A stretch of DNA of 64,000 nt from Kiloniella majae (GTDB taxonomy: Bacteria > Pseudomonadota > Alphaproteobacteria > Kiloniellales > Kiloniellaceae): positions 558,001-622,000 of the forward strand of contig NZ_MTSZ01000003.1 of the NCBI RefSeq assembly GCF_002118315.1. The letters are read 5' to 3'. The translations under genes and the position numbers were made by a program. Of the stretch, positions 24,701 to 39,894 are shown piece after piece. Under the pieces are notes generated by a model. That model saw nothing but the letters and a program-made list of their open reading frames with translations. It ran no database searches and had not been told where the DNA came from. Position 1 is the first letter of the stretch. The number at the start of each line of letters is the position of its first letter.

Positions 24701-27700
24701 GCAAATGATAGTGTTGGTGCTGATGATCCTGCGACAGTGACGAAGGTTACTTTTGATGGTCAGGATTATGATGTTCCTGCAACAGGTACAACAATCATTA
24801 AAGGTGAATTTGGTGAGTTGGAAATCGGAGCAGATGGTAAGGGAACTTACACTGCATACGAGGAAGATCATTTTGAAGTTACCAATACTGTTGGTAGTGC
24901 TGGAACTTCAGGTTCATCTGCCGATTGGAACGACGTGAAGCTTTATGCCTTTGAAGCTGGAGAAGCCCTTGATCTAACGCCAGGCGGGCTGAATGATCCT
25001 AATGACCAAGTTACCTTCACTGGTCGTGGAATTGGTGTTCAAGGAAATCAAACCAGTGGTGGAAGTCAGAATCAAATTAATCATGACCTGAATACTGATG
25101 ATAGTCAGAAGCTAGTTGTTGATTTTGATGAAGGTGTAGATCGCGCGACAATTACCCTGTCTAACATCTTTAAAGATGAAGGTGGCTCGACCGGGCATGA
25201 GCAGGGCACTTGGAAAGCCTATGATGCGGACGGTAATATCGTCGGTGCAGGTGTTCTTGACAGCTCGTCACTTGATTTTGGTAGCAGCAATAATGTTGCG
25301 ACAATTTCAATTAACCCTCCTGCGGACTTCCAGTATCTTGTTTTTGAAGCGACTGAATATGAAAATGATGGAGCTTCTGGAGGCGACTCTTCGGATTATT
25401 TTGTCCGCGCAATCGAATATACAACCAGCCCGGATGTACATGGTAAAGATGTATTTACCTACACAATGTCGGACGCTGATAATGATACTGACACTGCTGA
25501 TATCTGTGTCTGTGTCGATGATAAGGGGGTGTATATAACTGATTTAACACCAGCATTACTGGGTGGTGATGCGATTGTTGATGAAGATGATCTTCCTGAT
25601 GGAAGTGATGATACCCCAGAGACAACAACGGTTACCGGTGATTTCAAGATTACGGCTGAAGATGGTCTTGATTGTATTATTATCAAAGGAGAATCTGGAG
25701 ACATAACTATCACAAAAACAGAATTATTAGCTTCTGGAACTACACCTGTCTCAATTACGACTGAACTCGGTAACATTCTTACAATTACCGGGTACAATTC
25801 AGCCACTGGTGTTGTTAGTTATAGTTATGAGCTGAAAGATAGTGAAAATCATGCGCCGGGTGCGGATGAATTGTTTGATGATATCGCGTTAACAGTGAAA
25901 GATACTGATGGCGATGAAGTCTCTGCGACACTTGCTATCCAGATTATTGATGATGTTCCTACAGCCGTTAATGATACTGACATAGTTGATGATACACCGG
26001 ACAGTGGTAATAATACTGCGACAGGTAACGTGATGACTGCTGCAGGGACTGCTAATGGCGGTAAAGACACAGAAGGTGCTGATGGTGCTGATGTTACAGG
26101 CATTGTTAATGGTACAGGTTCAGTAGGTACATCGCTAACAGCTGATGGTACGTATGGAACGATCACGATAGATGGTGATGGTAACTATACCTACACTGTT
26201 ACAGCCTCCGACTATCCTTCTGGAGCTAAAGAGACCTTTACCTATCAACTCACGGATGGTGATGGGGATACAGATACAGCAACGCTGACAATTGATCTTA
26301 GAACTCTTATTACACCGCCGACAGTAACGGTTGAAGTTTCCGACCCTGATGGGGATGGTAGTCTTTCAGCAGGTTTGCTTGAGGACACATTTGGTGAGAT
26401 CAAGGTTACAGCTAAGTCTGTTAATGATGATCAGATTTCCAAAGTTATTTTGGATATTCCTTCCGATGTCACAGTTGAGAACGGTGCTTTTACAATAACA
26501 ATTAACGGTTCTGTCATTGACCCGAGTGATTATGTTGTTTCTTCAACAGGTACAGAAACAACATTTACTCTTGATACACCAACAACACATGATGTTATTG
26601 TTACATTCAATGCGAAAGCTGCTGCGAACAAGGGTGATGACATTGCTATTACTGCGAATGCTGTTGTTGTTGACGGTAGCTTGGAAGCAAGCAGTAATAA
26701 TGGTCCGACGGGGATCACAGTTGATGCTGTTGTTGATGGATCCGAGCTTGGCTATGGTAACCTGAGTGGTTCGGATAATGGTCCGATTTCTCTGGGGCTG
26801 ACGATTTCTCTGGGTAATGACAGTACAACAAGTGCATCAACACTTGATGCCGGCGGACCTGACTTTGAAGCTCAGGGTGGTACAGATGTTGATGGTTCCG
26901 AGAGCATCACGATTGTTGAAGTTAGCTTAAGCTCGGGCAGTCTTGGAGGATTTGGCGGCCTTATACCTGATACGTCAACTTCAAATGTTTGGAAATTTGA
27001 TACTTCCGGTATGACCGAGGCGCAGGTTAACACCTGGATCCAAGGCCTTAAGGTTACACCAGTTCAAGGTGTGACAGGTGATATAGATGTTACAGTAAAA
27101 ACAACGACAGTTGATGCTGAAGTTGGTAATGCTCTGACCGATGCTAACAATACTGATGAGGATACCTATAGCTTTAAGGTTGATATTAAGGATACAGGAC
27201 CAGAGATTGGTACTCCTGAGAAACTGAATGTCGACGAAAGTCATCTTCCAGAAGGAACTGATGCCAATAATGATGGGGATAGTGATGACACCGCCATTAC
27301 TGACACAGGCAGCTTTGGCACCTTTGGTGGAGGTCTTGATGGAATTGCGTCTATTGCCCTTAGCCTGAATACAACTGGCGTTACGACATCAGATGGTGAT
27401 CTCTCTGTAAATACGATTCAGGTTGGTAATGTACTCTACGGGTATACTGGTGCGGATTTGAGCACAGGTGAGACAGTCTTCACTTTTGGCATTACTACGG
27501 GCGGGGATTACACATACAAACAATATGCTGCACTGGAACATCCAGATCACCCGACCAACCACAACGAAGATTTAACATCTGGTTTGTCGTTTAATGTCGA
27601 GTTGACAGATGGTGACGGCACAAAAGCGGATGCAGATGTTACTGTTGAAGTTCTTGATGATGGTCCAACCATGACCGGCAGCACTATTTGTCTGACCGAA

Positions 27701-30700
27701 ACCCATGTAACGTCCATTGTTGGTTATCAATTAGAGGATTTGAACGGGATTACACCTGTAACTGTTACATCCCGTGGTGAAACAGAAGCTGATTATAAAA
27801 ACAGTTTTGGTTTCTACTATGCGGATGCAAATGGAAAGCCAATTGGTGGCGAGATTATTGTGTCGAACGAAAAAGATCTCGATGTTGGTTCTCCGGTTAC
27901 ATTTGATGTTAACCCGATGACTGTCGGTGCTGTTTCAATTGGCTTCTTCCTTATCCCGGATGGTGCGGGAGCAAATACTGGTCTCACAGGCGGGCCGGTT
28001 ACGTTTGTGGAAGATGCACCTGCGGGATCAAATAAATGGTCCGTGGTTAAAGACGGCGTAACTCTGAACTCTTCTCAAGCAGAGAAGCTTTATTTCAGTG
28101 ATCCGACCCTTAACCCTGATGGTGATCCTGATGGGGCTTCTGGTCCGCTACCATCTGGCTTGCATGTACAGGATCTGATTACGGCACCTGGTAACCAGAA
28201 TTGGGAAGATTTAAATATTGATGTTGGTGATAAAGATTATGATGATGTTAACCTTCAGGTAAATATCACTGAAAATTCTGCCTTTGGTCAGATTACATTT
28301 GATACCGGGGCCGATACGCCGGGTACATTTAAAATCACAGGGCCAACCAATATACAATCTGGCAAAACTGATGTGGTTGCGACCTCTTCTACAGATGATG
28401 GTATTATTACAGTCACGGGTACAGCAGGTGATACAGTTGTCTATGAACTTGTTTTCGACACTGCAACAGGTAAATACGAATTTGTAAGTATGGCTCCGTT
28501 GGATCACACTGATTCTGCTGATCTGAATGTTGTTTTCAACGTTACCTTGACAGATGCTGACAAAGACAGTGTTTCTGCTGATATCACTGTAAAGGTATCG
28601 GATACCGGGCCTCTGGCAGTTGAAGATACAGAGAGTGTTGCCGAAGGGGCAGCTACGATTACTGGTGATGTCACAGAAAATGATGATTTTGGTAGTGATG
28701 GTCGTGGTAAGGTATCAGAGGTTAATGGTGATAGTGACAATATTGGCAAGCCGATCACTGGAACTGCGGGCGGCACGTTTAAAATCAACACTGATGGCAC
28801 TTATGAATATACTCCGCCAGCAAATGTTGATAACTCAAACGGCAATCCTGTTGATACGATAAGCTATACGATTATTGACAGCGATGGATCTCCATCGACC
28901 AGTACCCTGAAAGTGACAATTACTGATACAGGACCTGTTGTCGGGAAACCTGTGAACAGTATTGTTGACGAAGAAGGTTTAATTAACGGTAATGTTGATG
29001 ATCCTTATGTTGGTGACAGCAGTGGTTCAGATACTTCCGTATCCAATGTAGATCTTGATATCACTTTTGGTCCTGACGGGGCTGGCACTGTGACTTTTGA
29101 TCCTTCTGAGATTGATTTCTCTGGCCTCAAATCGGGTGGAGAAGATGTTAACTTTGTGGTTCTTGATAATGGAAATGGCGCTCTAGTCGCCTATACTGGT
29201 GATACACCTCCGTCATCGACAACTGCTGGATCTGTGGTTTTCCATGCGTCATTGAACAACTCGGGAAGTGGGTCCTATAACTTCACACAGGTGAAGCCAC
29301 TGGATCATCCAACAGCAGATACAGAAGATAATATTGACCTGACCTTTGCTTTTACAGCGAAGGATGGTGATGATAGCTCTGTTCCTGGTAAATTTACAGT
29401 TACTGTCGATGATGATGGGCCCGTTGTTGGTGATCCCGAGGCAGTGGTTTTGGATGAACCAACGGCAGCGATTTATAATCTTGTGTTTGTTCTGGATACA
29501 TCTGGAAGTATGAATAGCTCTTCAGGGGCTGTTAATAACGATGGAAGCACTATTAGCAGATTAAACCTTGCGAAAGATTCGATCACACAATTGATTGCAG
29601 GCTATGAAGCGCAGGGCGGTGTAAACATTCAGATCGTCACCTTTGATTCAGGGGATACTCTGAGCGCTGCATCGTCTATTTCGGGTACTTTTACATCTAC
29701 AGGTGAAGTAGAGACATACTTCTCCGGGATTAGTGCAGGTGGTGCTACGAATTATGATGCGGGTCTAACGCAAACCCTGACCAATCAACAAGTTCTCAAT
29801 CTTACTGGCGAAAAAGCTGTTTATTTCCTCTCAGACGGAATGCCAAATTCTTCTAATGCAAACACTGAAGTTGATGGGACTCCTGGCGCAGGTATTGATA
29901 CTGAAGATTCTGCTGCTTGGTTTGCTGGCTTGCCAACAGGAACAGATGTTCACGCTGTTAGTGTTGGTACCAACTTATCGACCACTAACCTTGATCCAAT
30001 AGATAATACTGGTGGTGCACAGGTTATTCCAGGAGATGAGTTGCTGCCTACACTTTTGGCAACACTTCCAAGTTCAACATCAGGTAATGTTCTAACCAAT
30101 GATAGTTTTGGAGCGGATGGTAAAGGTGATACAGCGCTAAAATCGATTGCTGTTGGTGGTGCTATCTATACCAATACATCTGATGTTGGCGGGGATGTCT
30201 TGAGTAAAGTCGGTTCGACAATAACCATCAAAACAGAGGCTGGCGGACAGCTATCTGTTAACTTTATAACAGGTGCTTATACTTACGCCGCACCGTCAGT
30301 TGAAGAAACAACCATTGAGACATTCGATTATATTATTCAAGATGGTGATGGTGATACTGCATCTTCTAGCCTGACTGTTACCGTCAATGATGTTCCTGTT
30401 GATAATCCAAATATTCTTAATGGATCTTTGGTTACGAACAGTAATTCTAATGGACAGAGCTTTATCTTCACTTTCTATGATGAAGATGATCCAAAGAATG
30501 CTTATTCTAAGGTCATCTCATTGGATAACACTGGTCAGGAAGGTAATGATGTTCTTTCCGGGCATGATGTTGGTTTTGCTATCGATCCGAATAAGAATTA
30601 CATCACGTCTCTAGAAGCTACAGATACTGATGGTGGACAGGTTCAAGTGACTTATTTTGAGGTTGAAGGAACTGTACTGGTTTCCAAAGGTGGTGGTAGT

Positions 30701-31507
30701 CATCCTCATTTGAGTGATAGTGCTGACGGTCCTGGTGGACAGGATACCTTTGCGATTATCGGCAAAGTTAAGCCATCTATGAGTGGCCCAACTGAAATCA
30801 TTAAAGAAGCAATTCTTGATGATGGCAATACCGATGGCACTCCGACTGGAAGTTCCAATGATCGTTCTGATTACCTCTGGGGTGGCTCTGATAATGATTT
30901 AGATAGAGTGGCAGATACTCGAGGCAGCGATGGTGGAGGAAATGAAAACTCAATCATCAATGCTGGTGATGGTTTCGATGATTTATTTGGCCGTGGTGGA
31001 AATGATATTCTTGTTATGGATCTGGATAACAACAATGAGTGGCTTGATGGTGGCTCAGGTTTTGATCTAATACGAATAGATGCGCCAGTTGATCTATCTG
31101 AGAGTAGCCTAGATAATGGTAGTGATATACACGTAGAAGATGACGGTCATGTTTTCTACACAATGGATATGTCTAGCTATTTAGCCAATACCTTCGATGT
31201 TTCTAAAATTGAAGGAATCCTTCTTACTGAAGATGCGGCAGGTTCTGAAAATGTTGGTATTGATTTGAGCCTAACAGCGGCTGATGTGCTTGATATAACT
31301 TCCGGTAACTCTGGTGCAGATGCAAATACGCTTCATATCATGGGAACGGATGGCGATCGTGTAACATTAACCGATCAGGATAATTCTGGTGCAGAGTGGA
31401 CCAAGGGCTCGACTACTGATGGCTTCACGACCTACACAAATGCTTCGTCTATATTGAAAGTTGATGAAGATATTGAAGTGACAGATCTTAATGGGGATGT
31501 ATTTTAA
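18710..31507 (+). CDS. Giant type I secreted repeat adhesin with retention module, TAAG site, VWA and RTX tail (LapA-like)
   Basis: 4265 residues, strongly acidic, with no Sec signal, as expected for a type I secretion substrate. Residues 1-135 form an N-terminal retention-type module. T137-A138-A139-G140 followed by a glycine-rich linker (GAGAGPAGGGG) is the di-alanine motif cut by LapG-type proteases. From about residue 250 to 3590 there are some 14-15 repeats of 100-190 residues of the DUF5801/T1SS-143 kind, each closing with a D-D-(G/I/V)-P motif and often opening with VHEDAL or VDESNL. Two adjacent units are identical. Residues about 3588-3780 form a VWA domain with an intact MIDAS start (DTSGS at 3596-3600) and GGATNYDAGL. 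Near 4085-4125 are calcium-binding RTX-like repeats (GDGFDDLFGRGGNDIL, LDGGSGFD), then a C-terminal secretion region. The export and release genes lie at 32-40 kb on the other strand. It should be a cell-surface adhesin for biofilm or host/particle attachment. Confidence 0.92.
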   Translation: MTDDIKRNDGEAMVDTNDVNVVGETGRDVLVGQAAGAVDVSAPGAGETVNVSLVKGQSANLNFDATAATPVVDGNDFVLTFDSNGDGEADSRIVFQNLVEESQGADAPVLIIGGVELSAGLLIGQAQALAEGETLETAAGAGAGPAGGGGSVYSDDLGSAIDLLNAQGVIDPTELQFGLLGGQDEITDPAQGTLLISFITAITEVEEGPNGGITGSFGGGFEDWLPNHHLSDGDDGLDSDPFVGGSLETYAAPMRMVLTFVPADNETLDSVVINELPEGVRLFIGGSDEADEYTGGFPVTVSPSDFADVYVLPPQHSDADITITGSATISDPDSGESATLGYSTVAIVDAVADVPLGLEVSAPSDTQDVVSTDDNLNLNSVNVESEPTNDGSNDSDLNIGQSEEQLVSVNVSVEFADYEDDSEAHEIIIDGVPEDWDIVAISGAQIWQMQGDKVFAVTFDSEGRELLEDVTDNLAALPASLQYQIALASGEPRGAGEFSLESNTSGLGPDGESIGNETGSDEFVRYFIDVSEVVDGNGGQFNKTIEFDPNDWTNTRNADGSYRTITVEGEDGPVEQRVNSSANLEVRAVATEINTSGDELTDPDGTPVDENNQSVTDAKTIEVSITENEPFVGSVSLSYDETTRVDDGDPQPTDEVVDLSTITDITGGTPDVALPDGVTLQLSAPPIGAAQGALAYNLYTDGSNDEDDHSDDSYNTVDNAVVTQTVDSDPTPSVPNNGLENIAFDAVNGPSGLVTTGGETINLFNDANDNIVWGITDTGVVAFKVVISEDNDGVDGDNLENGAHTGSITFVQYVAIQHSEENPEDHDPTSHDEEVRSGSDFSLGYTITDDEGDTDTGTFNIDIEDDGPVITGNEVISVDESNLLGGNNGPDGTNDGDADNAKPITAQGTFDNFEFGTDGELADDGTTDARDGIKIDLTSVSDHNDTSAALVTSNGDVPVNLIQIGNVLYGYTGAEPTAPLNASDDNLVFTLSVDGDGNYQYSQYQAFEHYDTANTNEDLNLEFNVTITDGDKDTASATISLTVKDDAIINNDVDAIVATVHEDALSIFNPFLEDSSEGNDDPNDTETAFIANVDLASRVDAGADTPARFELNDEISGTKVMSGDQVVTSKGGEITYVWVSETQVNGVVVGDGLFGSDRVVFEIKKVAGGFQFDLDDQIDHPVPTEGNEFPGDREILPLDLSSVFEAFDADGDSVVLDSAVTINVQDDVPENNSKEALRYKVNEDALDRPGDLSDGNDDRFDRETAFIRNISLASRVSVGADEFVRFEFNDAVTLTGSPVTRPDGTPITSQGDSVTYVYVSPTQVNGVAGNPARVVFEVRKVSGGFQFDLEDQIDHPVPTEGNEYPGDRETLPLDLSSIFEAFDRDGDSVVLEKAVTVQIEDDIPLNNDEDAIVVGVNEDALTTVDGEDLSEGNDDAGQSKSADIKYDDLVAQVSVGADEPARFELNDAVSGNVMTVAVPADGDVAAVPASAVTSKGDAVKYSFVAATVDTPAMIVGVAGSPERIVFTLKSDGAGGFVFELNDQIDHADDTANDDSQVLNLDLSGAIEAFDADGDSVVLDTAVIVQIEDDIPINQTEGLVNVTVHEDALTGQSTGNDEGGKVSSHAISATDLAATVSVGADEPVRFSLNTLAADADETVDDESIDGEAVLDTNNNPVTSGGPLNTVVYKVVGGKIQGVVEGPIGDGSDDRVVFELTSDGSGGFVVTLVDQIDHPAATDGADATGDDETLGLNLSGAFIATDADGDYVVLDTAVTVQIEDDIPINQTEGLVNVTVHEDALTGQSTGNDEGGKVSSHAISATDLAATVSVGADEPVRFSLNTLAADADETVDDESIDGEAVLDTNNNPVTSGGPLNTVVYKVVGGKIQGVVEGPIGDGSDDRVVFELTSDGSGGFVVTLVDQIDHPAATDGADATGDDETLGLNLSGAFIATDADGDYVVLDTAVTVTVEDDVPVANNDDYTNQGNDCLTLTNSVDVDVLANDSVGADDPATVTKVTFDGQDYDVPATGTTIIKGEFGELEIGADGKGTYTAYEEDHFEVTNTVGSAGTSGSSADWNDVKLYAFEAGEALDLTPGGLNDPNDQVTFTGRGIGVQGNQTSGGSQNQINHDLNTDDSQKLVVDFDEGVDRATITLSNIFKDEGGSTGHEQGTWKAYDADGNIVGAGVLDSSSLDFGSSNNVATISINPPADFQYLVFEATEYENDGASGGDSSDYFVRAIEYTTSPDVHGKDVFTYTMSDADNDTDTADICVCVDDKGVYITDLTPALLGGDAIVDEDDLPDGSDDTPETTTVTGDFKITAEDGLDCIIIKGESGDITITKTELLASGTTPVSITTELGNILTITGYNSATGVVSYSYELKDSENHAPGADELFDDIALTVKDTDGDEVSATLAIQIIDDVPTAVNDTDIVDDTPDSGNNTATGNVMTAAGTANGGKDTEGADGADVTGIVNGTGSVGTSLTADGTYGTITIDGDGNYTYTVTASDYPSGAKETFTYQLTDGDGDTDTATLTIDLRTLITPPTVTVEVSDPDGDGSLSAGLLEDTFGEIKVTAKSVNDDQISKVILDIPSDVTVENGAFTITINGSVIDPSDYVVSSTGTETTFTLDTPTTHDVIVTFNAKAAANKGDDIAITANAVVVDGSLEASSNNGPTGITVDAVVDGSELGYGNLSGSDNGPISLGLTISLGNDSTTSASTLDAGGPDFEAQGGTDVDGSESITIVEVSLSSGSLGGFGGLIPDTSTSNVWKFDTSGMTEAQVNTWIQGLKVTPVQGVTGDIDVTVKTTTVDAEVGNALTDANNTDEDTYSFKVDIKDTGPEIGTPEKLNVDESHLPEGTDANNDGDSDDTAITDTGSFGTFGGGLDGIASIALSLNTTGVTTSDGDLSVNTIQVGNVLYGYTGADLSTGETVFTFGITTGGDYTYKQYAALEHPDHPTNHNEDLTSGLSFNVELTDGDGTKADADVTVEVLDDGPTMTGSTICLTETHVTSIVGYQLEDLNGITPVTVTSRGETEADYKNSFGFYYADANGKPIGGEIIVSNEKDLDVGSPVTFDVNPMTVGAVSIGFFLIPDGAGANTGLTGGPVTFVEDAPAGSNKWSVVKDGVTLNSSQAEKLYFSDPTLNPDGDPDGASGPLPSGLHVQDLITAPGNQNWEDLNIDVGDKDYDDVNLQVNITENSAFGQITFDTGADTPGTFKITGPTNIQSGKTDVVATSSTDDGIITVTGTAGDTVVYELVFDTATGKYEFVSMAPLDHTDSADLNVVFNVTLTDADKDSVSADITVKVSDTGPLAVEDTESVAEGAATITGDVTENDDFGSDGRGKVSEVNGDSDNIGKPITGTAGGTFKINTDGTYEYTPPANVDNSNGNPVDTISYTIIDSDGSPSTSTLKVTITDTGPVVGKPVNSIVDEEGLINGNVDDPYVGDSSGSDTSVSNVDLDITFGPDGAGTVTFDPSEIDFSGLKSGGEDVNFVVLDNGNGALVAYTGDTPPSSTTAGSVVFHASLNNSGSGSYNFTQVKPLDHPTADTEDNIDLTFAFTAKDGDDSSVPGKFTVTVDDDGPVVGDPEAVVLDEPTAAIYNLVFVLDTSGSMNSSSGAVNNDGSTISRLNLAKDSITQLIAGYEAQGGVNIQIVTFDSGDTLSAASSISGTFTSTGEVETYFSGISAGGATNYDAGLTQTLTNQQVLNLTGEKAVYFLSDGMPNSSNANTEVDGTPGAGIDTEDSAAWFAGLPTGTDVHAVSVGTNLSTTNLDPIDNTGGAQVIPGDELLPTLLATLPSSTSGNVLTNDSFGADGKGDTALKSIAVGGAIYTNTSDVGGDVLSKVGSTITIKTEAGGQLSVNFITGAYTYAAPSVEETTIETFDYIIQDGDGDTASSSLTVTVNDVPVDNPNILNGSLVTNSNSNGQSFIFTFYDEDDPKNAYSKVISLDNTGQEGNDVLSGHDVGFAIDPNKNYITSLEATDTDGGQVQVTYFEVEGTVLVSKGGGSHPHLSDSADGPGGQDTFAIIGKVKPSMSGPTEIIKEAILDDGNTDGTPTGSSNDRSDYLWGGSDNDLDRVADTRGSDGGGNENSIINAGDGFDDLFGRGGNDILVMDLDNNNEWLDGGSGFDLIRIDAPVDLSESSLDNGSDIHVEDDGHVFYTMDMSSYLANTFDVSKIEGILLTEDAAGSENVGIDLSLTAADVLDITSGNSGADANTLHIMGTDGDRVTLTDQDNSGAEWTKGSTTDGFTTYTNASSILKVDEDIEVTDLNGDVF
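23458..24024 (+). repeat. Exact 567-bp direct repeat, copy 1
   Basis: Compared line by line, bases 23458-24024 are identical to 24028-24594 at a period of 570 bp (190 codons). The unit encodes one DUF5801-like adhesin repeat starting IPINQTEGLVNVTVHEDAL. Neighbouring repeats are similar only at protein level, so this copy is a recent in-frame duplication. Confidence 0.95.
24028..24594 (+). repeat. Exact 567-bp direct repeat, copy 2
   Basis: Second copy of the adhesin repeat at 23458-24024, adjacent and in frame. Differences begin immediately outside (C/T at 24027 versus 23457, A/C at 24595 versus 24025). Silent changes are absent within the unit, indicating duplication or gene conversion too recent for drift. 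It is also a place where short-read assemblies may collapse or expand. Confidence 0.95.
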
Positions 31508-32104: not shown

Positions 32105-33157
32105 TTACTTTAACGAGAGAATGAGATCACCCAATAGCTGTAAATCTGTGTGGCTTGCCGGAATTTTCTTCGCTTTTTTGAAACGATTTTCCGCTGCGGT
32201 AATGGTGTCTAAGGTTGCGTTCCGTGGTTTTCCAACCAGATAGCCTTGGCGGGAAAGTAGCGTAGCGATGGTTTGTTCCGGGGATGTTGAAGCTTCACTT
32301 CCTGGGGCAGGGTAGGCACCTTTATCCCAGAGAAAACCAAGTTTTCCGATGCCGGATTTTACATCATCTTTACCCTGTTGCGGGTGGAAGCGTAGTGCGT
32401 TCAGGGCGCCAACGTAATCATTGATGCCTCTGTTATCTGCGCTCAAACCTATAACGTTTATGCCGACAATGGAAAAGGCGCTCTTATCATATAGAAGCAG
32501 GGGCGAGCCACTATCGCCGTTTTGAAGGAAGCATTGATGAGCAATACCATCGTTACCTTTGAATTTTTTCGGAGCCTGACAGTTAAAATCAACTGTCTGA
32601 GCATTTGGGGCGCCAGCTCGATAACCTGATGTAATTAAACGGGATTGCCCGGTTTTTAGTCGACTGCGAACAGATCTATCAAGGGCATCGAGTTTTAACC
32701 AGCCAGTTTGTGTACCAATGGGATCAGCAAGCTCTAAAAGCGCCCAATCGGTTTCTGTGTTTCTGGCAGAGGCTTCGTTCTTTGGTTTATAACGCGATGA
32801 TTTTTTATAGGATTTGATCTTGGAATGGATCTTGTACTGATCGTGTTGATAGCCTGCGATAAAATGCAGCTCTTGAGGGGCAAGCCATCGTCCTGTTTTT
32901 GCGTCATAGATACAGTGAGCGGCGGTCAGTACATGACGTTCACTGACCATTGCGCCGGTACAGTGTGCTCGCCCCGCTGCGTTAAGCCTGCCGATGGTAC
33001 TCCAGGGGTATTCCATGGCATTAACGAGAATACGCTCCCGTGCAGCGAGCTTTTGAGAAGCCTGACTTGGGGTATTGGATAAGATGACCGCCGACAGGAC
33101 TGCTAAAAGCATTACTTTGGCGTTTAAAGCTCTTAACAGCCCAAATCTTAATGGCAT
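32105..33157 (-). CDS. Secreted S1 (trypsin-like) serine protease
   Basis: 350 residues with a signal sequence ending near SQAS (residue 34). The triad is intact: H81 in TAAHC, D137 in TDWALLEL, S216 in NGDSGSP. The sequence PWSTIGRLNAAGRAHCTGAM closely matches the pseudoprotease at 16178-17041, so the two are paralogues. The last 65 residues (TIATLLSRQGYLVGKPRNATLDTITAAENRFK in outline) look like a small peptidoglycan-binding-type helical domain, which could hold it at the cell wall. It begins 9 bp after the stop of the HD-GYP gene, so they are co-transcribed. Its substrate may be a surface protein, the adhesin included; that is inference. Confidence 0.88.
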   Translation of the reverse strand: MPLRFGLLRALNAKVMLLAVLSAVILSNTPSQASQKLAARERILVNAMEYPWSTIGRLNAAGRAHCTGAMVSERHVLTAAHCIYDAKTGRWLAPQELHFIAGYQHDQYKIHSKIKSYKKSSRYKPKNEASARNTETDWALLELADPIGTQTGWLKLDALDRSVRSRLKTGQSRLITSGYRAGAPNAQTVDFNCQAPKKFKGNDGIAHQCFLQNGDSGSPLLLYDKSAFSIVGINVIGLSADNRGINDYVGALNALRFHPQQGKDDVKSGIGKLGFLWDKGAYPAPGSEASTSPEQTIATLLSRQGYLVGKPRNATLDTITAAENRFKKAKKIPASHTDLQLLGDLILSLK

Positions 33158-33166
33158 CGGTAAAAC

Positions 33167-35260
33167 CTAGTGCTGGATAGAGGCGATGAGCTTTTCGCCC
33201 TCGACAGAGTTTACCACATCCCTAAGCGCGTTAATAACACCCGTGTCATAGCGATCATTATTTTCTTCGAGAATATCCAATGCTCGCAGAGGTTCCAGCC
33301 CATGGCGGTAAGAACGAGGTTCAATTCGCGCACAGAAAACATCGCAAGCCCCAAGAATACGGGCTGTGATCAATATTTCTTCACCAACCAAACCACGAGG
33401 ATACCCTTTGCCGTCAAGACGTTCGTGCATTTGCATGATCGTTTCCAGAACAGGCAAATCAAAATCAATGCCCCGGAGCAACTGTTGCGTATGTTTAGGA
33501 TGTTTCTGGATTTCGGCGATCTCTTCTGGTGTCAGGCGTTCTGGTTTGTTGAGAATACTTCGTGGAATAGCCAGTTTACCGATTTGTGACAGGTTTGATG
33601 AGATCTCTAATGTGGAAATTTCGAGTGTGCTCAGGTTCATACGTTTGCCAACCATAAGGGCAAAAAGACATACACGACGCGAATGTCCGCCTAAGTACGG
33701 ATCGCGGAGTTCCACGGCGCGAACCAAAGCAGTTACCATCTGTTTGACAGCTTTTTCTTTTTTGCGCTGTTCTTCAACGATTTCTGTAACGTCCCGGAAA
33801 ACAGAAACGATGCCGGATACCTGATTGTCTTCACCAACAAATGGCACTTTGCTGATTTGCAGATGATGTTCTTTGTTGTTCAGGAATACGCGTTCGTTGT
33901 TGGTAACCACACCGCCGGTAGAAACGGCGCGTTGATCACTGATCGACATTCTGGCTGCGGTGCCGGTGCCAAAGATAGCGGCATCATCCATGCCAAGAAG
34001 CTGATCTTCTTCTCGGCCAACACCTTTGGCAAAGGCCGGATTAATATAGCGATAGCTGCCATCGACCGCCTTCAGGCCGATGAAGTCAGCAATGGAGCCA
34101 TTAATTTTATCCAGCAACTGTTTTTGCGCATGAATGCGTGTGGCGAGATCTTTGAACTGTTTCGCCAATGCACCGTTATGCTCACTGTTCAGGCGCCACC
34201 AGAAGGCTAGGAAGACAGCCGCGACGATAAGTACGATAAAGCCAGCGAGGAGGTAGGCAATATTTCTGAACTCAATCAGGCTTTTTTCTGCACTTACGCG
34301 ATCAACTTCCTGGAAAATCCACAACTGATCAGGGATCAAAGGAGCGCCAACTGAATAGACCTCTTTAGCGGCAATCCCGATCGTCGGGCGAAGGGCAAAG
34401 GCAAAGATATCTTCGTTGTTTGATGTCAGTGTGATATCGCGGATTAGCTCTGGATCCTGTGGCGTTATTTCCTGGAAACCTTTGTTGGTAATTTGGACCA
34501 TTCTGGTGATTTCGCCTTCTTCAGACAAAGCTCGTTGAGAGAGAAATTCACCAAATTTTGTGGTTACAGGAAAAGTAAGAAGCATCAGGCCAACAGGCTC
34601 TTCTTCATCCGCTTCTGACTGTGCGGGTAGTACAGGTAGCAGTAAGTCCATGACCAGCCCGGATGAATCAACACGTACCGGACCAAAGGTTACTTCCTTG
34701 CGTCCGAATGCTGACATGGCAAGTTGCTTTTGCTGCTCGGTTACTGGGTCCGCACCGCCACTGGTCAGGTAAGCGATACCTGTTTTTCCAAACAGATAGC
34801 TAGTTGTGAAATCACTGTTAATGGTAAAGTCAGTGAGAACACGTTCCATAAAGGGAAGCTGTTCAAACAGAGAAACCCCAAGACTTGAATCGGGATCTTC
34901 GTCTGGTTTTGGGGGAACAATCTGGGTGAAATCGCCACCCGCAAGATCTACTTCGTATGCAAAGAGACGGAAAAGTTCATTGGATACCAACCTGTCGGAT
35001 TGTGCCCGGACAGAGTCTAGCCAGGTCTGTACAAGCTCGCTACGTCCGGAAGCGAGAATTTCCTGTCTATCCTGAACTTTGGCTATAACAGTGCTTTTCC
35101 TGTCATTAATGATTAAGCCCGGGACAATAATCGACATGAGTATGAGGGCACCAATAACAAGAGCCGCGGTGACAACTGTACGCCGGTTAGCCGGGCGTTC
35201 AGATGTGGCCATATCGTTTATGGCGTGAAATTCGAATTTCTCTTTACCGTTTTTCTTCAT
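33167..35260 (-). CDS. Membrane PAS-HD-GYP protein with degenerate HD-GYP site, candidate LapD-like c-di-GMP receptor
   Basis: 697 residues from ATG 35260 (GGA at good spacing); an upstream ATG at 35290 lacks a ribosome site. TM1 is at about 29-52, a periplasmic sensor region at 53-330, TM2 at 335-358, a PAS domain at 385-500 and an HD-GYP domain at 515-690. HD-GYP phosphodiesterases need an HD pair in LLHDIGK, HHE in HHERxDGxGYP, and an Asp in DxYDAL. Here they read SNLSQIGK, QMHERLDGKGYP and DVFCAR. The HD pair, one His and one Asp are thus lost, while GHS, the KHP histidine and GYP remain. Metal-dependent hydrolysis of c-di-GMP is improbable but ligand binding could persist. It lies directly after lapG, where LapD is often encoded, so it may be the inner-membrane receptor controlling LapG. 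Confidence 0.85.
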   Translation of the reverse strand: MKKNGKEKFEFHAINDMATSERPANRRTVVTAALVIGALILMSIIVPGLIINDRKSTVIAKVQDRQEILASGRSELVQTWLDSVRAQSDRLVSNELFRLFAYEVDLAGGDFTQIVPPKPDEDPDSSLGVSLFEQLPFMERVLTDFTINSDFTTSYLFGKTGIAYLTSGGADPVTEQQKQLAMSAFGRKEVTFGPVRVDSSGLVMDLLLPVLPAQSEADEEEPVGLMLLTFPVTTKFGEFLSQRALSEEGEITRMVQITNKGFQEITPQDPELIRDITLTSNNEDIFAFALRPTIGIAAKEVYSVGAPLIPDQLWIFQEVDRVSAEKSLIEFRNIAYLLAGFIVLIVAAVFLAFWWRLNSEHNGALAKQFKDLATRIHAQKQLLDKINGSIADFIGLKAVDGSYRYINPAFAKGVGREEDQLLGMDDAAIFGTGTAARMSISDQRAVSTGGVVTNNERVFLNNKEHHLQISKVPFVGEDNQVSGIVSVFRDVTEIVEEQRKKEKAVKQMVTALVRAVELRDPYLGGHSRRVCLFALMVGKRMNLSTLEISTLEISSNLSQIGKLAIPRSILNKPERLTPEEIAEIQKHPKHTQQLLRGIDFDLPVLETIMQMHERLDGKGYPRGLVGEEILITARILGACDVFCARIEPRSYRHGLEPLRALDILEENNDRYDTGVINALRDVVNSVEGEKLIASIQH

Positions 35261-35317
35261 TGTTTTCCGCTCTGTCCCCCCGGGGAGCATTTGTGTCTTT
35301 GGACTGTTTTCATCATC

Positions 35318-36025
35318 TTACTTGATATGTGCCCAACGTGTCGTCGAATTCATAGAGTACTGAGGTATATAATGGCGATATTTTGTATGCGTCAGGATCA
35401 GGTTTGAAAGACTGTCCAGTATCAGGATATCGTTCTTTTCATATATTGCCAGTACTGCGTGCCCAATACCACGGATACTATCCTTTAAAATCACAATACG
35501 CATTTCGTTGTCTTTAAAACCAAGTTCTTTCAAGGCATAGAATTTGGCGATGGAATAGTCTTCGCAGTCACCGGATGTTCGCATGAACTGGTTGGGCGAG
35601 GCCCAGTATTCGCTAACACCATAAACTTCGTGGTCCAGTTTATAGGGCCAACGGTTAAAGAATTTATTTACCGTATCAAGCTTCTGTCGCCGCGACATGT
35701 TCTTGGCGGCATGAATTATTTTCCGCCAGGATTTTTGTTGCGGTGTTTTACAATTGGCGATGTTGTTTGCGCAGGCGTTAAATGACCTGATTTCAGGTTT
35801 TGATTTTTTTAACACACGGGCCCATTGTGGTAGCGCTTTGAATGACTTGGATCTGAATTCAACTGTTCTGAACAGGGCTGTCCCTTTACCCTTGGCTGCC
35901 TTGGCCAAATCACCAAGCGACTGGGCATGCGCAGCATCCATAGGCATCGTGTTCACAAGAACAGAAGCCAAGGATGCAATTAATGCGGCCTTTTTGATGA
36001 TTTGTAACGGCTTAAAGTCGGTCAA
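35318..36025 (-). CDS. lapG: LapG-type periplasmic cysteine protease (transglutaminase-like, BTLCP)
   Basis: 235 residues with a signal segment ending near AHAQ (residue 35). The bacterial transglutaminase-like cysteine protease triad is present: C154 in SGDCEDYSIAKFYAL, H189 in GIGHAVLAI, D204 in ILDSLSN. LapG cuts LapA-type adhesins at a di-alanine motif near their N terminus and releases them from the cell surface; the adhesin here has such a motif (TAAG, residues 137-140). LapG is normally held back by c-di-GMP-bound LapD; here the adjacent membrane protein is of PAS-HD-GYP type. It follows the lapC-like gene after 176 bp that include a strong hairpin. Confidence 0.9.
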   Translation of the reverse strand: MTDFKPLQIIKKAALIASLASVLVNTMPMDAAHAQSLGDLAKAAKGKGTALFRTVEFRSKSFKALPQWARVLKKSKPEIRSFNACANNIANCKTPQQKSWRKIIHAAKNMSRRQKLDTVNKFFNRWPYKLDHEVYGVSEYWASPNQFMRTSGDCEDYSIAKFYALKELGFKDNEMRIVILKDSIRGIGHAVLAIYEKNDILILDSLSNLILTHTKYRHYIPQYSMNSTTRWAHIK

Positions 36026-36201: not shown

Positions 36202-37530
36202 TTACTTTTCCCGAAGGGCTGAATCGCGTGCTTTCAGGATTGGCTTTAACAGGTAATCCATAACAGTTTTCTTACCTGTTAGAATTTCGACATTTGCTGT
36301 CATACCGGGAATAATTTCCAGCTCCTTACCTTTGCTGACAATTTTATTATCAGCAGTACGCAGATAGACACGATAGAAACTCTCGCCTTCTTCATCCTTG
36401 ATGGTACTAGCTGAAATACGTTCCAGCTTCCCTTCGAGCCCCCCATAAATAGAGAAGTCATAGGCTGTAACTTTGATGGTTGCTTTCTGGCCAGAGCGAA
36501 GAAAGGCACGGTCAGATGGACGGATTTGGGCTTCGACAAGCAGGGTGTCATCCAGTGGGACGATTTCAACAATATCTTCACCCGGACGAATAACACCACC
36601 AACAGTGTTACGCTTTAGTTCTTTGATTGTACCGCGAACAGGGGATCTGATATCTGTTCTCTGAACAGTATCCACACCTGCTGCAACACGTTCGCTCAGC
36701 GACTTCATCTCTGCACGAGATCTGTTGAGCTCATCAGATACTTCTGCTTTTGTAGTCAGGACCATTTCGTCAATACGTTGCTTTGCCTCTAGGACAGCGC
36801 CTTCTAGGCGAGGCAAACTTGTACGCAACGTTTTGATTTCACCTTCAAGGTCTGCAACTTGACGATCAATACGGATAAGTTCAAGCCTTGGCGAAATGCC
36901 TTTGTCGACAAGTGGTTTGGTTATGTTGCGCTCTTCGCGTGCCAAAGCAAGAGAGTTCCTCAGTTGCCCTATCCGGCTCTTCACCTCTGATACTTCATGG
37001 CGGCGTTGTCGGGACTGATTTTCAAGAACTTTGATTTGTGCTTCTTGTTGAAGCTTTCTTGCATTGTATAGCGATGTTTGATCCGCGACTTGATCCGGTG
37101 CGCTTTGAAGTTCTGCTTCTGTATATTCCAAAGGCGTATCGTTCAGCTCTGCGGTCAGACGTTTGACTGTCGCGGAGAGAATTTTTAGTTGCTCGTTAGA
37201 ATCTTTTACCGTTGACGTAGCTTGAGAATTGTCAATACGAAGAAGGATATCCCCCTTCTCAACGATATCACCTTCCTGAACCATAAGTTCGGTAATAATA
37301 CCCCCCTCGAGATTCTGGATAATTTGGGTTTTTTGTGCCGGTATAAAGGTACCTTCGCCACGTGTTACTTCATCCAGCTCTGCCATGGTTGCCCATGTGC
37401 CGAACACGAGGAAAAACAAAAATGCTGTGAAGGTAAGCGTGTAGGCGATACGGCGCCCTCTTCTGAGGGTCGCGGCATGTAGATCTGGAGCAAATAATAG
37501 ATCTTCGTCTTTTTTAGACATGGAAGACAT
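36202..37530 (-). CDS. lapC: Type I secretion membrane fusion protein (HlyD/LapC family)
   Basis: A 442-residue periplasmic adaptor. It has a short cytoplasmic N terminus, one TM helix at about 27-50, a lipoyl-like half motif (QNLEGGIITELMVQEGDIVEKGDILLRID), a long coiled coil (about 105-290), and the second lipoyl half plus beta-barrel (TDIRSPVRGTIKELKRNTVGGVIRPGEDIVEIVP). It should link the ABC exporter at 37597 to an outer-membrane TolC/LapE channel, which is not in this window. It begins 66 bp after the exporter stop. Confidence 0.93.
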   Translation of the reverse strand: MSSMSKKDEDLLFAPDLHAATLRRGRRIAYTLTFTAFLFFLVFGTWATMAELDEVTRGEGTFIPAQKTQIIQNLEGGIITELMVQEGDIVEKGDILLRIDNSQATSTVKDSNEQLKILSATVKRLTAELNDTPLEYTEAELQSAPDQVADQTSLYNARKLQQEAQIKVLENQSRQRRHEVSEVKSRIGQLRNSLALAREERNITKPLVDKGISPRLELIRIDRQVADLEGEIKTLRTSLPRLEGAVLEAKQRIDEMVLTTKAEVSDELNRSRAEMKSLSERVAAGVDTVQRTDIRSPVRGTIKELKRNTVGGVIRPGEDIVEIVPLDDTLLVEAQIRPSDRAFLRSGQKATIKVTAYDFSIYGGLEGKLERISASTIKDEEGESFYRVYLRTADNKIVSKGKELEIIPGMTANVEILTGKKTVMDYLLKPILKARDSALREK

Positions 37531-37596: not shown

Positions 37597-39894
37597 CTAT
37601 CCGGCGCTCGCCCGGATTTGTCCCTGTTTCAAGGCTTCAAGAACCTCTGCTTTTGGTCCGTCAGCGACGATCCGGCCACTATCGACAATGACCAGACGAT
37701 CAACCAGTGTAAGCAGTGAACTTCGATGAGTGACCAGAACCAGTGTTTTTCCAACAACTGCTTTTGATAGGCGTTGTTTGAATGCTGCTTCTGATGAGTT
37801 ATCCATACCACTTGTTGGCTCATCCATTAGCAGGATTGGCGGATCAAGAAGTAATGATCTGGCAATAACAACGGCTTGCCGTTGCCCACCTGAAAGGGAC
37901 ATGCCACGTTCACCGACCTGGAGATCAAATCCATGAGGATGTGTTTTAAGAAAATCCGTTACACCTGCAAGGGATGCGGCACGCAGAATTGTCTGATCAT
38001 CCACGTGTGGAGCTCCAAAAGAGATGTTCTCTTTTACGGATCCGAAGAAGAGATAGTTATCTTGTGAAACGTAACCGATATTTCTGCGAAGATCCGCTGG
38101 ATCAATCTGGCGGATATCGGTGCCATCGGCAAGGACGGAACCTTCGGTTGGATCGTAAAGCCCCAGGCAAAGGCGTGCGATTGTTGATTTTCCCGAACCA
38201 ATGCGCCCCAGGATACCAACACGTTCGCCCGGTTTAACTTTGAGGCTGACGTTATCGAGCGCTTTGACTTCTTGTCCCGGGTAATTGAACGTTATTTTTT
38301 TTAGTTCAATTTCACCGCTTAGACGTGGGCGGTGAAGATAGGTTTTGTCTTCTGAACGCTCAACTTCTGAACTCATGATGTTATCAAGCGATTTCAAAGC
38401 AACACGAGACTGTTGTAATCTGGTAAGCATACCCGCAATGGTACCAAGAGGTGCAAGCGCACGTCCGCTCAGCATACTGGAGGCAACGAGAGCACCCATG
38501 GTCATCTCTTTTTCGATGATCAAAAACACGCCGACGATGACAACAACAACGGTGGTCATCTGAATGGCCAACTGTGCAAAGGTCGTTGAAATACCTGATA
38601 GTAGTTTAGCTTTACCGGCTGAGTCCGCCGTTAAACCGACAAAGCGTTCCCACGAACGTTGAATGCGCCCTTCTGCTGCCGTCGTCTTGATGGTCTCTAG
38701 TCCATCGATAGTTTCAACCAGCAAGGCATGCTTTTGGCTGGATTCTTTGTGGGTTCTTTCAATAACTTTCCGCAGGGGAATTTGAAGGAATACACCGACG
38801 AGAATGACCAGCGGCACAACAATCAATGGTATCACAGCAACCTGTGGGGCTGCGACAATCGAAATAATCCAGATAAAGAGGAAAATAAAAGGTAAGTCGA
38901 TCAGAGCAACCAGAGTACCTGATGTAAAGAAGTCCCGGAGCGACTCAAATTCTCGCAGGTTGTTTGCCATGGCCCCGGTTGAAGGGGGTTTGTTAGAAAG
39001 TTTCATTGCCATAAGCTGTTCAAGCAGACGGCTGGCAATGATTACATCAGCGTTTTTACCTGCTACATCAACCAAATAGGTTCGCAGGTTTTTCATAATA
39101 AATTCAAAAAGGAAGACTGTTGTCACCCCGATTGCCAGAACAGCAAGTGTGGCACTGGCTCCGTTCGGAACTACGCGGTCATACACATTCATGACGAACA
39201 AAGGGCTGGCGATGGCAAACATGTTGATCAAAATGGACGCCAACATAACATGGCTGTAGATCGGCCAGAATTTGAACAGTGTTCCCCAGAACCAGGCTTT
39301 AGGTTTTTTTAGCTGGATATCTGATGCACGTGAGTCAAACTTGTACTCTGTCCGCGCAAATATTGCATAGCCTGTGTACTGTTCCTGAAGTTCTTCTACG
39401 GTAATTTCTCTTTGCCCGCGCCCTTCCGGTATGGCGATGTTGGCCTTGCCGGATTTTGTGTAGTTCAGAAGAATGCAGGCTCCGCCTTGTTTTAGCAGAA
39501 CAATACAGGGAAGTGTAACGGGTTGAATATCTTCGATTGTTGCCCGGCGAACGGTTCTTGCTGTTAAGCCCGCACGTTCCGCGGCACGAACAGCCAAGTC
39601 GGGTGTGAAGTGGGCATCGCTGTGCGGAAGTCCGGCTTTCAGTGCTTCAACGGATATAGGCCTTTGCATCATCGACGCAAGCATATACACACATTCAAGA
39701 AGTGGATCTTCGAAGTTTACAGAGCCGGGATCAACCTGCCACTCTGCTTTAGGTGGCACACCACCGTCGATCACTTCTGAAGCTTTCAGAGCATCAGCAG
39801 CTTGCTGTTTGGCCTGCTCTTCTGCTGCTTTTTTCTCTTTTGCGGAAACCTTTTTACCACTCTTGGGTTTACTCGCTGTATTCTCAGAACTCAT
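37597..39894 (-). CDS. lapB: Type I secretion ABC exporter with C39-like domain (LapB family)
   Basis: 765 residues. A charged N-terminal tail is followed by a C39-like domain (about 60-190, DPLLECVYMLASMMQRPIS) without the catalytic Cys/His arrangement, as in exporters of large RTX adhesins that dock rather than cut their substrate. A six-helix membrane domain covers about 215-480. The ATPase has Walker A GRIGSGKST (about 563), signature LSGGQRQ (about 667), Walker B ILLMDEPTSGMD (about 688) and the H-loop THRSS. It is first gene of the row lapB-lapC-lapG-HDGYP-S1 protease and should export the 4265-residue adhesin. Confidence 0.93.
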   Translation of the reverse strand: MSSENTASKPKSGKKVSAKEKKAAEEQAKQQAADALKASEVIDGGVPPKAEWQVDPGSVNFEDPLLECVYMLASMMQRPISVEALKAGLPHSDAHFTPDLAVRAAERAGLTARTVRRATIEDIQPVTLPCIVLLKQGGACILLNYTKSGKANIAIPEGRGQREITVEELQEQYTGYAIFARTEYKFDSRASDIQLKKPKAWFWGTLFKFWPIYSHVMLASILINMFAIASPLFVMNVYDRVVPNGASATLAVLAIGVTTVFLFEFIMKNLRTYLVDVAGKNADVIIASRLLEQLMAMKLSNKPPSTGAMANNLREFESLRDFFTSGTLVALIDLPFIFLFIWIISIVAAPQVAVIPLIVVPLVILVGVFLQIPLRKVIERTHKESSQKHALLVETIDGLETIKTTAAEGRIQRSWERFVGLTADSAGKAKLLSGISTTFAQLAIQMTTVVVVIVGVFLIIEKEMTMGALVASSMLSGRALAPLGTIAGMLTRLQQSRVALKSLDNIMSSEVERSEDKTYLHRPRLSGEIELKKITFNYPGQEVKALDNVSLKVKPGERVGILGRIGSGKSTIARLCLGLYDPTEGSVLADGTDIRQIDPADLRRNIGYVSQDNYLFFGSVKENISFGAPHVDDQTILRAASLAGVTDFLKTHPHGFDLQVGERGMSLSGGQRQAVVIARSLLLDPPILLMDEPTSGMDNSSEAAFKQRLSKAVVGKTLVLVTHRSSLLTLVDRLVIVDSGRIVADGPKAEVLEALKQGQIRASAG

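Follow-up and report, generated by a model that had tools for sequence, protein, structure and literature searches.

How can a LapG-type protease be controlled where the gene next to it does not encode LapD? The question is raised by the alphaproteobacterium Kiloniella majae, in a stretch of 64,000 nucleotides (assembly GCF_002118315.1, contig NZ_MTSZ01000003.1, positions 558,001 to 622,000; hereafter the window), where a gene for a LapG-like cysteine protease of the BTLCP family is followed by the gene of a transmembrane protein whose HD-GYP domain has a damaged catalytic site. A preliminary description of the window, made from the sequence alone, had suggested that this protein is a receptor of cyclic di-GMP (c-di-GMP) that replaces LapD. 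That hypothesis is right, yet the mechanism has already been published for DvhD of Desulfovibrio vulgaris, and the window pair is a further member of the same system. The description had also pointed to a Desulfovibrio Lap-type system with a receptor other than LapD; this was correct, the receptor being DvhD, and it decides the matter of novelty. We consider it very probable that the two genes form a DvhDG system, in which a dead HD-GYP receptor of c-di-GMP restrains LapG, the protease that cuts an adhesin. The receptor is homologous to DvhD in every domain, has lost metal ligands and retains part of the nucleotide contacts; LapG is intact, the gene order corresponds, and a candidate substrate is encoded nearby.

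The receptor and its protease

Hydropathy and matches to PAS_4, HD_5 and Peptidase_C93 bear out the arrangement first described, a first transmembrane helix (TM1), a periplasmic domain, a second helix (TM2), PAS and HD-GYP, encoded beside lapG (Table 1). The best sequence matches of the receptor in the PDB are three fragments of DvhD, namely 9rc0 (PAS/HD-GYP, E 2.6e-78), 9rbz (HD-GYP, 7.3e-50) and 9rc2 (periplasmic, 9.5e-33). The six top fold matches of an AlphaFold2 model, in which LapG and the receptor were joined as a read-through, are likewise DvhD chains (Foldseek; 9rc0, TMt 0.83; 9rbz, 0.88-0.91; 9rc2, 0.85), after which come PmGH and, at rank 12 and below, LapG structures that correspond to the protease part of the model. 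Homology with DvhD over the full length, together with the shared change of HD into SQ, supports the proposal that this is probably a LapD-like receptor of LapG built on a degenerate HD-GYP domain.

The protease gene begins with TTG, and the N-terminus of its product resembles, by eye, a Sec signal. Only two solved sequences match it at E<=0.01, both of them LapG structures (4u65 and 4fgo), and its match to NF045674 (E 3.8e-27) lies far under the curated cut-off of that model. The triad C154/H189/D204 is intact, as are the D-C-E-D residues around the Cys that make up the calcium site. DvhG of Hildenborough is membrane-anchored, whereas the LapG of the window has no hydrophobic segment over the hydropathy threshold; the missing anchor is no real departure from DvhG, because most DvhG orthologues carry signal peptides (Font et al. 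2026, PMC13090378).

The likeness to DvhD/DvhG (DVU1020/DVU1019; 9rc0, 9rbz and 9rc2) extends from the domain order, the change of HD into SQ, the partial loss of HH and the retention of GYP to the surroundings of the genes, which include the BTLCP neighbour, genes of a type I secretion system (T1SS) and a giant adhesin in which a [TAP]AAG site and a stretch resembling VWA are present; DvhA also carries a VWA domain (PMC13090378). On the minus strand of the window, the genes run in the order ABC transporter, HlyD, LapG, receptor and trypsin-like protease, with intergenic gaps of 66, 176, 27 and 9 bases. The two receptors have M621 in common and differ in that the second His of HH and the metal ligand D305 are kept in the window receptor, both being Asn in DvhD. 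The loci differ in the trypsin-like gene added in the window, and the hosts belong to different bacterial classes.

With LapD/LapG of Pseudomonas fluorescens, the pair shares a dead c-di-GMP domain and the logic of inside-out control of LapG and adhesin release, but LapD is composed of a LapD/MoxY periplasmic domain and a degenerate GGDEF-EAL, neither of which is found in the window receptor, where PAS and HD_5 stand instead. The preliminary description had left room for a bona fide lapD elsewhere in the genome. The LapD_MoxY_N profile has zero matches there and is also silent in 14 control genomes; as a positive control, it matches in 44 of 150 genomes of the phylum. It also matches in 5 of 289 genomes of the class, one of them below the curated cut-off, and in none of the 48 genomes with the class A or class B receptors defined below (lists compared by eye). 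A LapD with the usual N-domain that serves this LapG from another locus was rejected on these grounds, namely the absence of a match in the genome and the performance of the model on 44 of 150. The genome does encode one other HD-GYP protein (HD_5 model), in which HD and HH are kept.

The HD-GYP site and the probable control of LapG

The eight metal ligands of PmGH (Bellini et al., PMC4159591) were mapped onto the receptor with the aid of the PDB alignment. Three are lost (H221 to S568, D222 to Q569 and H276 to M621) and four are retained (H189 as H536, H250 as H597, H277 as H622 and D305 as D650), while E185 corresponds to Y532, a Tyr that also occurs at this position in one HD-GYP subfamily (PMC4159591). 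The receptor therefore lacks the HD pair and the full HH pair expected of an active HD-GYP phosphodiesterase, and retains GYP together with the equivalents of K225 and D183. The losses of HD (S568-Q569) and of one His of HH (M621-H622), and the retention of GYP, had all been read correctly beforehand. The loss of a "later Asp" has to be corrected: C653 replaces the equivalent of D308, which is strongly conserved and required for activity without being a metal ligand (PMC4159591), but the Asp that is a metal ligand is kept as D650. The retained ligands, the K225 and D183 equivalents and GYP could be taken to mean that the receptor is a weak phosphodiesterase of c-di-GMP or 3'3'-cyclic GMP-AMP that acts near LapG and exerts no control over it by contact. 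However, the equivalents of H221, D222 and H276 are the ones lost, Ala substitution of each essentially abolished the activity of PmGH (PMC4159591), and DvhD, which also has SQ, is inactive (PMC13090378); we give this explanation hardly any chance.

In DvhD, where HD has become SQ, c-di-GMP occupies both canonical and bridging sites and is not hydrolyzed, and an earlier study cited by Font et al. found that DvhD controls DvhG in a c-di-GMP-dependent manner in a reconstituted P. fluorescens strain (PMC13090378). Among the eleven contact residues of DvhD with c-di-GMP that Font et al. named (PMC13090378), six are identical in the window receptor (Y523, P567, L577, Y621, R650 and Y652) and K520 is conservatively replaced by Arg. 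We infer from D. vulgaris DvhD that the window receptor binds c-di-GMP, lacks hydrolysis and controls LapG in the same direction.

Relatives of the receptor were sought in 289 genomes of the class and 398 of the phylum, and search P0001 (E<=1e-40) gave matches in 43 and 6 of them, respectively. The matches whose motifs were read fall into two degenerate classes and a few intact enzymes (L072, L074 and L158). Class A, to which the window receptor belongs, comprises 12 proteins in 10 of the 289 genomes, with GYP kept and SQ, AQ or G variants at HD; for 10 of the 12, a lapG-type BTLCP gene lies directly upstream, always co-directional, so the neighbourhood first noticed in the window recurs. When plasmids were searched with the receptor and LapG as queries, no site matched 80% of the length of either one. 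The HD pair is absent from all 17 other class A proteins tabulated (H221: Ser in 13, Ala in 4; D222: Gln in 14, Gly in 3), and the idea that the residue losses are a one-off or an artefact was rejected because they recur across the class. In the same 17 proteins, the equivalents of R650, L577, Y652 and the GYP Tyr are near-invariant (R in 17, L in 15, Y in 16 and Y in 17), as would be expected if the nucleotide pocket is used. This conservation speaks against the very improbable alternative that the HD-GYP domain is no longer a nucleotide sensor and that the receptor passes to LapG a signal from a ligand of dCache or PAS, for which one could cite the four contact residues that differ from DvhD and the fact that CACHE domains are commonly ligand sensors (PMC13090378).

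In the DvhDG reading that we prefer, the HD-GYP domain would bind c-di-GMP without hydrolyzing it, the binding would alter the receptor dimer, and the change would pass from PAS by way of the TM helices to the dCache domain, which would hold or inhibit periplasmic LapG. A drop of c-di-GMP would free LapG, and the freed protease would release the adhesin (4265 aa) by cutting it at the TAAG that follows its periplasmic N-terminal region. The likeliest contact for LapG on dCache is the helix alpha1', which ranks 1-2 of 260 twelve-residue segments in conservation over the periplasmic domain of 15 class A proteins and is identical at 9 of 12 residues in D. vulgaris. An AlphaFold3 model of Font et al. 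places DvhG on alpha1' of DvhD (PMC13090378); the agreement between conservation and model is suggestive, and docking of LapG through alpha1' may be presumed.

The putative substrate contains [TAP]AAG twice, at residues 137-140 and at 2443, and the N-terminal TAAG is counted as support only. A VWA-like stretch is discernible by eye near residue 3594, and one Big_9 match, below the cut-off, falls in a C-terminal piece. Two long, near-identical internal repeats are also visible in the translation. It is unlikely, in our view, that the receptor and LapG, although in one operon, act on a target other than this neighbouring adhesin. That the adhesin gene lies on the opposite strand and has no named retention module, and that the flanks of most of the class B loci examined hold no T1SS gene, would be in keeping with another target; on the other side stand the T1SS genes directly upstream on the same strand, the TAAG near the adhesin N-terminus, and the operon of D. 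vulgaris, which holds the same kinds of gene (PMC13090378).

Several observations weigh against the identification as DvhDG. Four of the eight PmGH metal ligands are still present, and for that reason the absence of activity in the receptor is inferred. Four of the eleven DvhD contacts are altered (K582 to I, M646 to R, E668 to N and R569 to S); the affinity and specificity for c-di-GMP may therefore differ from those of DvhD. The AlphaFold2 read-through of LapG and receptor reaches a pTM of only 0.42 (pLDDT 84.4), and residues 164-183 are conserved almost as strongly as alpha1' in the 15 class A proteins. Three of the 12 class A proteins (L041, L044 and L045, with open frames of 436-558 aa) seem too short for a full dCache, and two of these, L044 and L045, still adjoin a BTLCP gene; docking on dCache therefore need not be general. 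As for the substrate, [TAP]AAG turns up in 8% of the sequences obtained by shuffling the N-terminal 250 aa of the adhesin, and the first 430 residues of the protein have no Pfam or NCBIfam match. Finally, the genome encodes a second, unpaired BTLCP.

Table 1. Coordinates of the features discussed (window positions, unless a locus is named)
Feature	Residues	Position	Strand	Basis
DvhD-type receptor gene, 707 aa (TM1, dCache, TM2, PAS, degenerate HD-GYP)		33167..35290	-	domain, PDB, fold and hydropathy evidence
TM1	36-64	35099..35185	-	hydropathy
Periplasmic dCache domain	~65-335	34286..35098	-	PDB 9rc2 E 9.5e-33; Foldseek 9rc2 TMt 0.85
Helix alpha1' NELFRLFAYEVDL, candidate LapG-docking helix	104-116	34943..34981	-	conservation; helix in model
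TM2	337-369	34184..34282	-	hydropathy
PAS domain	401-503	33782..34090	-	PAS_4 E 1e-12
Degenerate HD-GYP domain	522-683	33242..33727	-	HD_5 E 3e-41; 9rbz E 7.3e-50
HD motif changed to SQ	S568-Q569	33584..33589	-	alignment; SQ also in DvhD
HH motif changed to MH	M621-H622	33425..33430	-	alignment
Cys at D308-equivalent	C653	33332..33334	-	alignment
LapG/DvhG-type BTLCP cysteine protease		35318..36025	-	PF06035 (Peptidase_C93) E 3.7e-20; triad intact
T1SS membrane-fusion protein (HlyD/LapC-like)		36202..37530	-	domain search
T1SS ABC transporter with C39-like domain (LapB-like)		37597..39894	-	domain search
Trypsin-like serine protease		32105..33157	-	9 bp downstream of receptor; GDSGS present
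Very large adhesin-like protein (4265 aa), probable substrate of LapG		18710..31507	+	open reading frame
TAAG, candidate LapG cleavage site	137-140 of adhesin	19118..19129	+	motif search
Short class A receptors		L041:9258-10565, L044:6673-8346, L045:9468-11006		open-frame length
Class B receptor loci		L046-L073 (except L072), L075-L154		MN for HD, GYP eroded
Cys-less class-A-paired LapGs		L037:14661-15359, L038:12298-12975, L039:12134-12823, L199-L216		alignment

Two classes of degenerate receptors

The second class, class B, was found with alignment A2 (E<=1e-60) after 8 class A rows had been set aside, and comprises 43 proteins in 42 genomes, with MN or LN for HD. The motif of the HD site was read for 33 of the 43; G007, G078, G082, G100, G110, G187:C118, G197, G210, G231 and G287 were assigned by profile score alone. 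In 21 class B proteins tabulated, D222 and D305 are Asn and H250 is lost without exception (21/21 each), H189 is kept in 16 and the GYP Tyr in 3, and most other metal ligands are lost; the equivalents of K520 (as R), P567, L577 and R650 are invariant contacts. A Pfam dCache_1 match was obtained for 7 of 11 class B proteins. With a sequence profile of the class B PAS-HD-GYP part, the cytoplasmic chains of DvhD rank first, while no match to 9rc2 is obtained with the profile of the periplasmic domain (E 0.001). In a fold comparison, the model of a class B protein has 9rc0 at rank 1 (TMt 0.80) and 9rc2 at rank 12 (TMt 0.75), the latter being the first solved single periplasmic domain listed.

Class B receptors, which occur in Rhodospirillales, Sneathiellales and others, are mostly divergent from their BTLCP genes, in contrast to the co-directional class A. 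A BTLCP gene lies within 2 kb of 30 of the 43 proteins (27 divergent, 2 convergent and 1 co-directional) and is absent within that distance from the other 13. BTLCPs are encoded in 42 of the 48 genomes with class A or B versus 38 of the 241 without (Fisher 6e-22, uncorrected for kinship). Of the 123 BTLCPs in the sample, 10 stand beside class A and 30 beside class B, and no receptor of either class lies within 2 kb of the others; the family is widespread in Alphaproteobacteria and includes HvyA, which is not part of a Lap system (Ardissone et al. 2014, PMC4241560).

A further set of named class B loci consists of the best 80 of 301 candidates, some of whose genomes are shared with the 289. Its holders include Aestuariispira insulae, Oceanibacterium hippocampi, Pacificispira spongiicola, Sneathiella species, Hwanghaeella and Rhodospira trueperi, the last with no BTLCP near. 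In these best 80, a divergent BTLCP lies within 1 kb in 58 (some of them over-long, overlapping frames) and at 1021 bp in 1, 14 have no BTLCP, and 7 have too little upstream sequence. Besides the receptor and LapG, no neighbour family occurs in more than 20 of the 80, and no common substrate gene was seen among the neighbours, about five families of which were typed with Pfam. An outer-membrane efflux protein family is present in 12 of these loci. In Aestuariispira insulae, the pair is adjoined by a protein with a weak EAL match (L124:3731-4999; PF00563, E 2.1e-9), and a family resembling it by eye occurs in 5 of the 80. Loci L221-L223 gave no LapG or receptor match.

How the two classes are related was examined in a receptor tree from which 14 catalytic columns had been removed, with 13 HD-GYPs that have HD and HH as comparators and one Desulfovibrio sequence. 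Class A, DvhD and class B are united with support of 100/99, class B with 100/100, class A plus DvhD with 95/78 and class A with 91/80, and the window receptor groups inside class A; with all columns and 5 comparators, class A plus DvhD receives 93/89. HD-GYPs that keep HD and HH (PmGH, V-cGAP3 and the HD-GYP of the same genome at G000:C1) resemble the degenerate proteins in fold and in several nucleotide-contact residues, but are placed on the opposite side of the 100/99 branch. That the degenerate site alone pulls A, B and DvhD together was rejected, since the 100/99 branch persists without the 14 catalytic columns.

The LapG tree, built on 130 columns and with many forks unresolved, has two sides. 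One (97/89) contains all A-paired rows, two unlabelled rows and the unpaired BTLCP of K. majae; the other (94/89) contains all B-paired rows and two unlabelled ones. Four rows marked "?", whose receptor was missed by the class pattern or split, were assigned to neither class, and all four triads are intact. The split of LapG mirrors that of the receptors, so that the two partners have for the most part moved together. The unpaired BTLCP/DUF553 protein (L002:1276-1932; C1:690494-690829 of the genome), which has a very long branch in this tree, adjoins a solute-binding protein, with no receptor in the surrounding stretch examined.

Paired systems in the Sneathiellales

Class A is present in 24 of 25 Sneathiellales genomes, among them those of Oceanibacterium hippocampi, Sneathiella chinensis, S. 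sedimenti and Sneathiella sp. HT1-7; the exception is 56% complete. The 18 loci that are long enough share one order: class B receptor and divergent LapG-B, then, after a gap of at least ~2 kb, ABC transporter, HlyD, LapG-A and class A receptor. Except in L200, a convergent trypsin-like gene closes the series, and the class B receptor of L217 is left untyped by the pattern. The trypsin-like gene of the window is thus a recurring neighbour: in 23 of the 24 class A loci of Sneathiellales, a homologue lies downstream of the receptor gene and convergent with it.

The triad and the D-C-E-D residues are intact in each of the 30 tabulated LapGs that are paired with class B. In the 21 class-A-paired LapGs of Sneathiellales, the catalytic Cys is Ser in 19 and Pro in 1, and one is truncated (L217), so that none of the 20 readable proteins keeps Cys; the Pro case, L200, belongs to an unusual open frame of excessive length. 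Beyond the Sneathiellales, Cys is present in 8 of 9 class A LapG rows (two of the rows are the same gene in overlapping loci), as it is in the LapG of the window. A class-A-paired LapG at L040:9109-9885 has Asp for the catalytic Cys, while another class A pair of its genome, G180, is intact (L045). In genome G148, both proteases are intact (L036 and L046), contrary to any rule that one of two is dead.

The Cys-less LapG-A seems, as judged from substitution patterns, to be maintained by selection. In the three closest pairs, dN/dS is 0.08-0.09 for LapG-A, similar to the 0.06-0.09 of LapG-B. Ordinary decay is nevertheless a possible alternative, since dS is near or above 1 and one more distant LapG-A pair among six listed reaches a dN/dS of 0.29. 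Ser-His-Asp could instead serve as a catalytic triad, against which it may be said that several LapG-A copies are also altered at calcium-site residues. We tentatively propose a broader scheme, which we regard as possible though rather doubtful. A two-branched family of dead HD-GYP proteins would have co-diversified with its own LapGs, class B would be a second type of LapG receptor, and LapG-A of Sneathiellales, where the two pairs stand on either side of a single T1SS, would be a maintained pseudoprotease that, while bound by its cognate receptor, competes with the active LapG-B for the retention region of the adhesin. Release would then need two keys set by c-di-GMP, namely the freeing of the cutter and the withdrawal of the shield.

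No description of a class B receptor or of a catalytically dead LapG was found in what was mainly open literature. The string "alphaproteobacter" is absent from the text of Font et al. 2026, whose class-level survey may already include members of the class of K. majae (PMC13090378). The window pair extends to this class an alternative to LapD that is known experimentally from one sulfate reducer. The family as a whole shows a route from hydrolase to receptor, along which metal ligands are lost, several nucleotide contacts are kept and the partner protease is co-inherited. It also bears on the suggestion of Font et al. that DvhD goes back to an HD-GYP enzyme which took the place of LapD (PMC13090378), because in the present trees the degenerate proteins fall into a single group, made up of branches A and B, with DvhD next to A. 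If the scheme for Sneathiellales is true, bacteria would also employ a protease-dead LapG in the control of adhesins.

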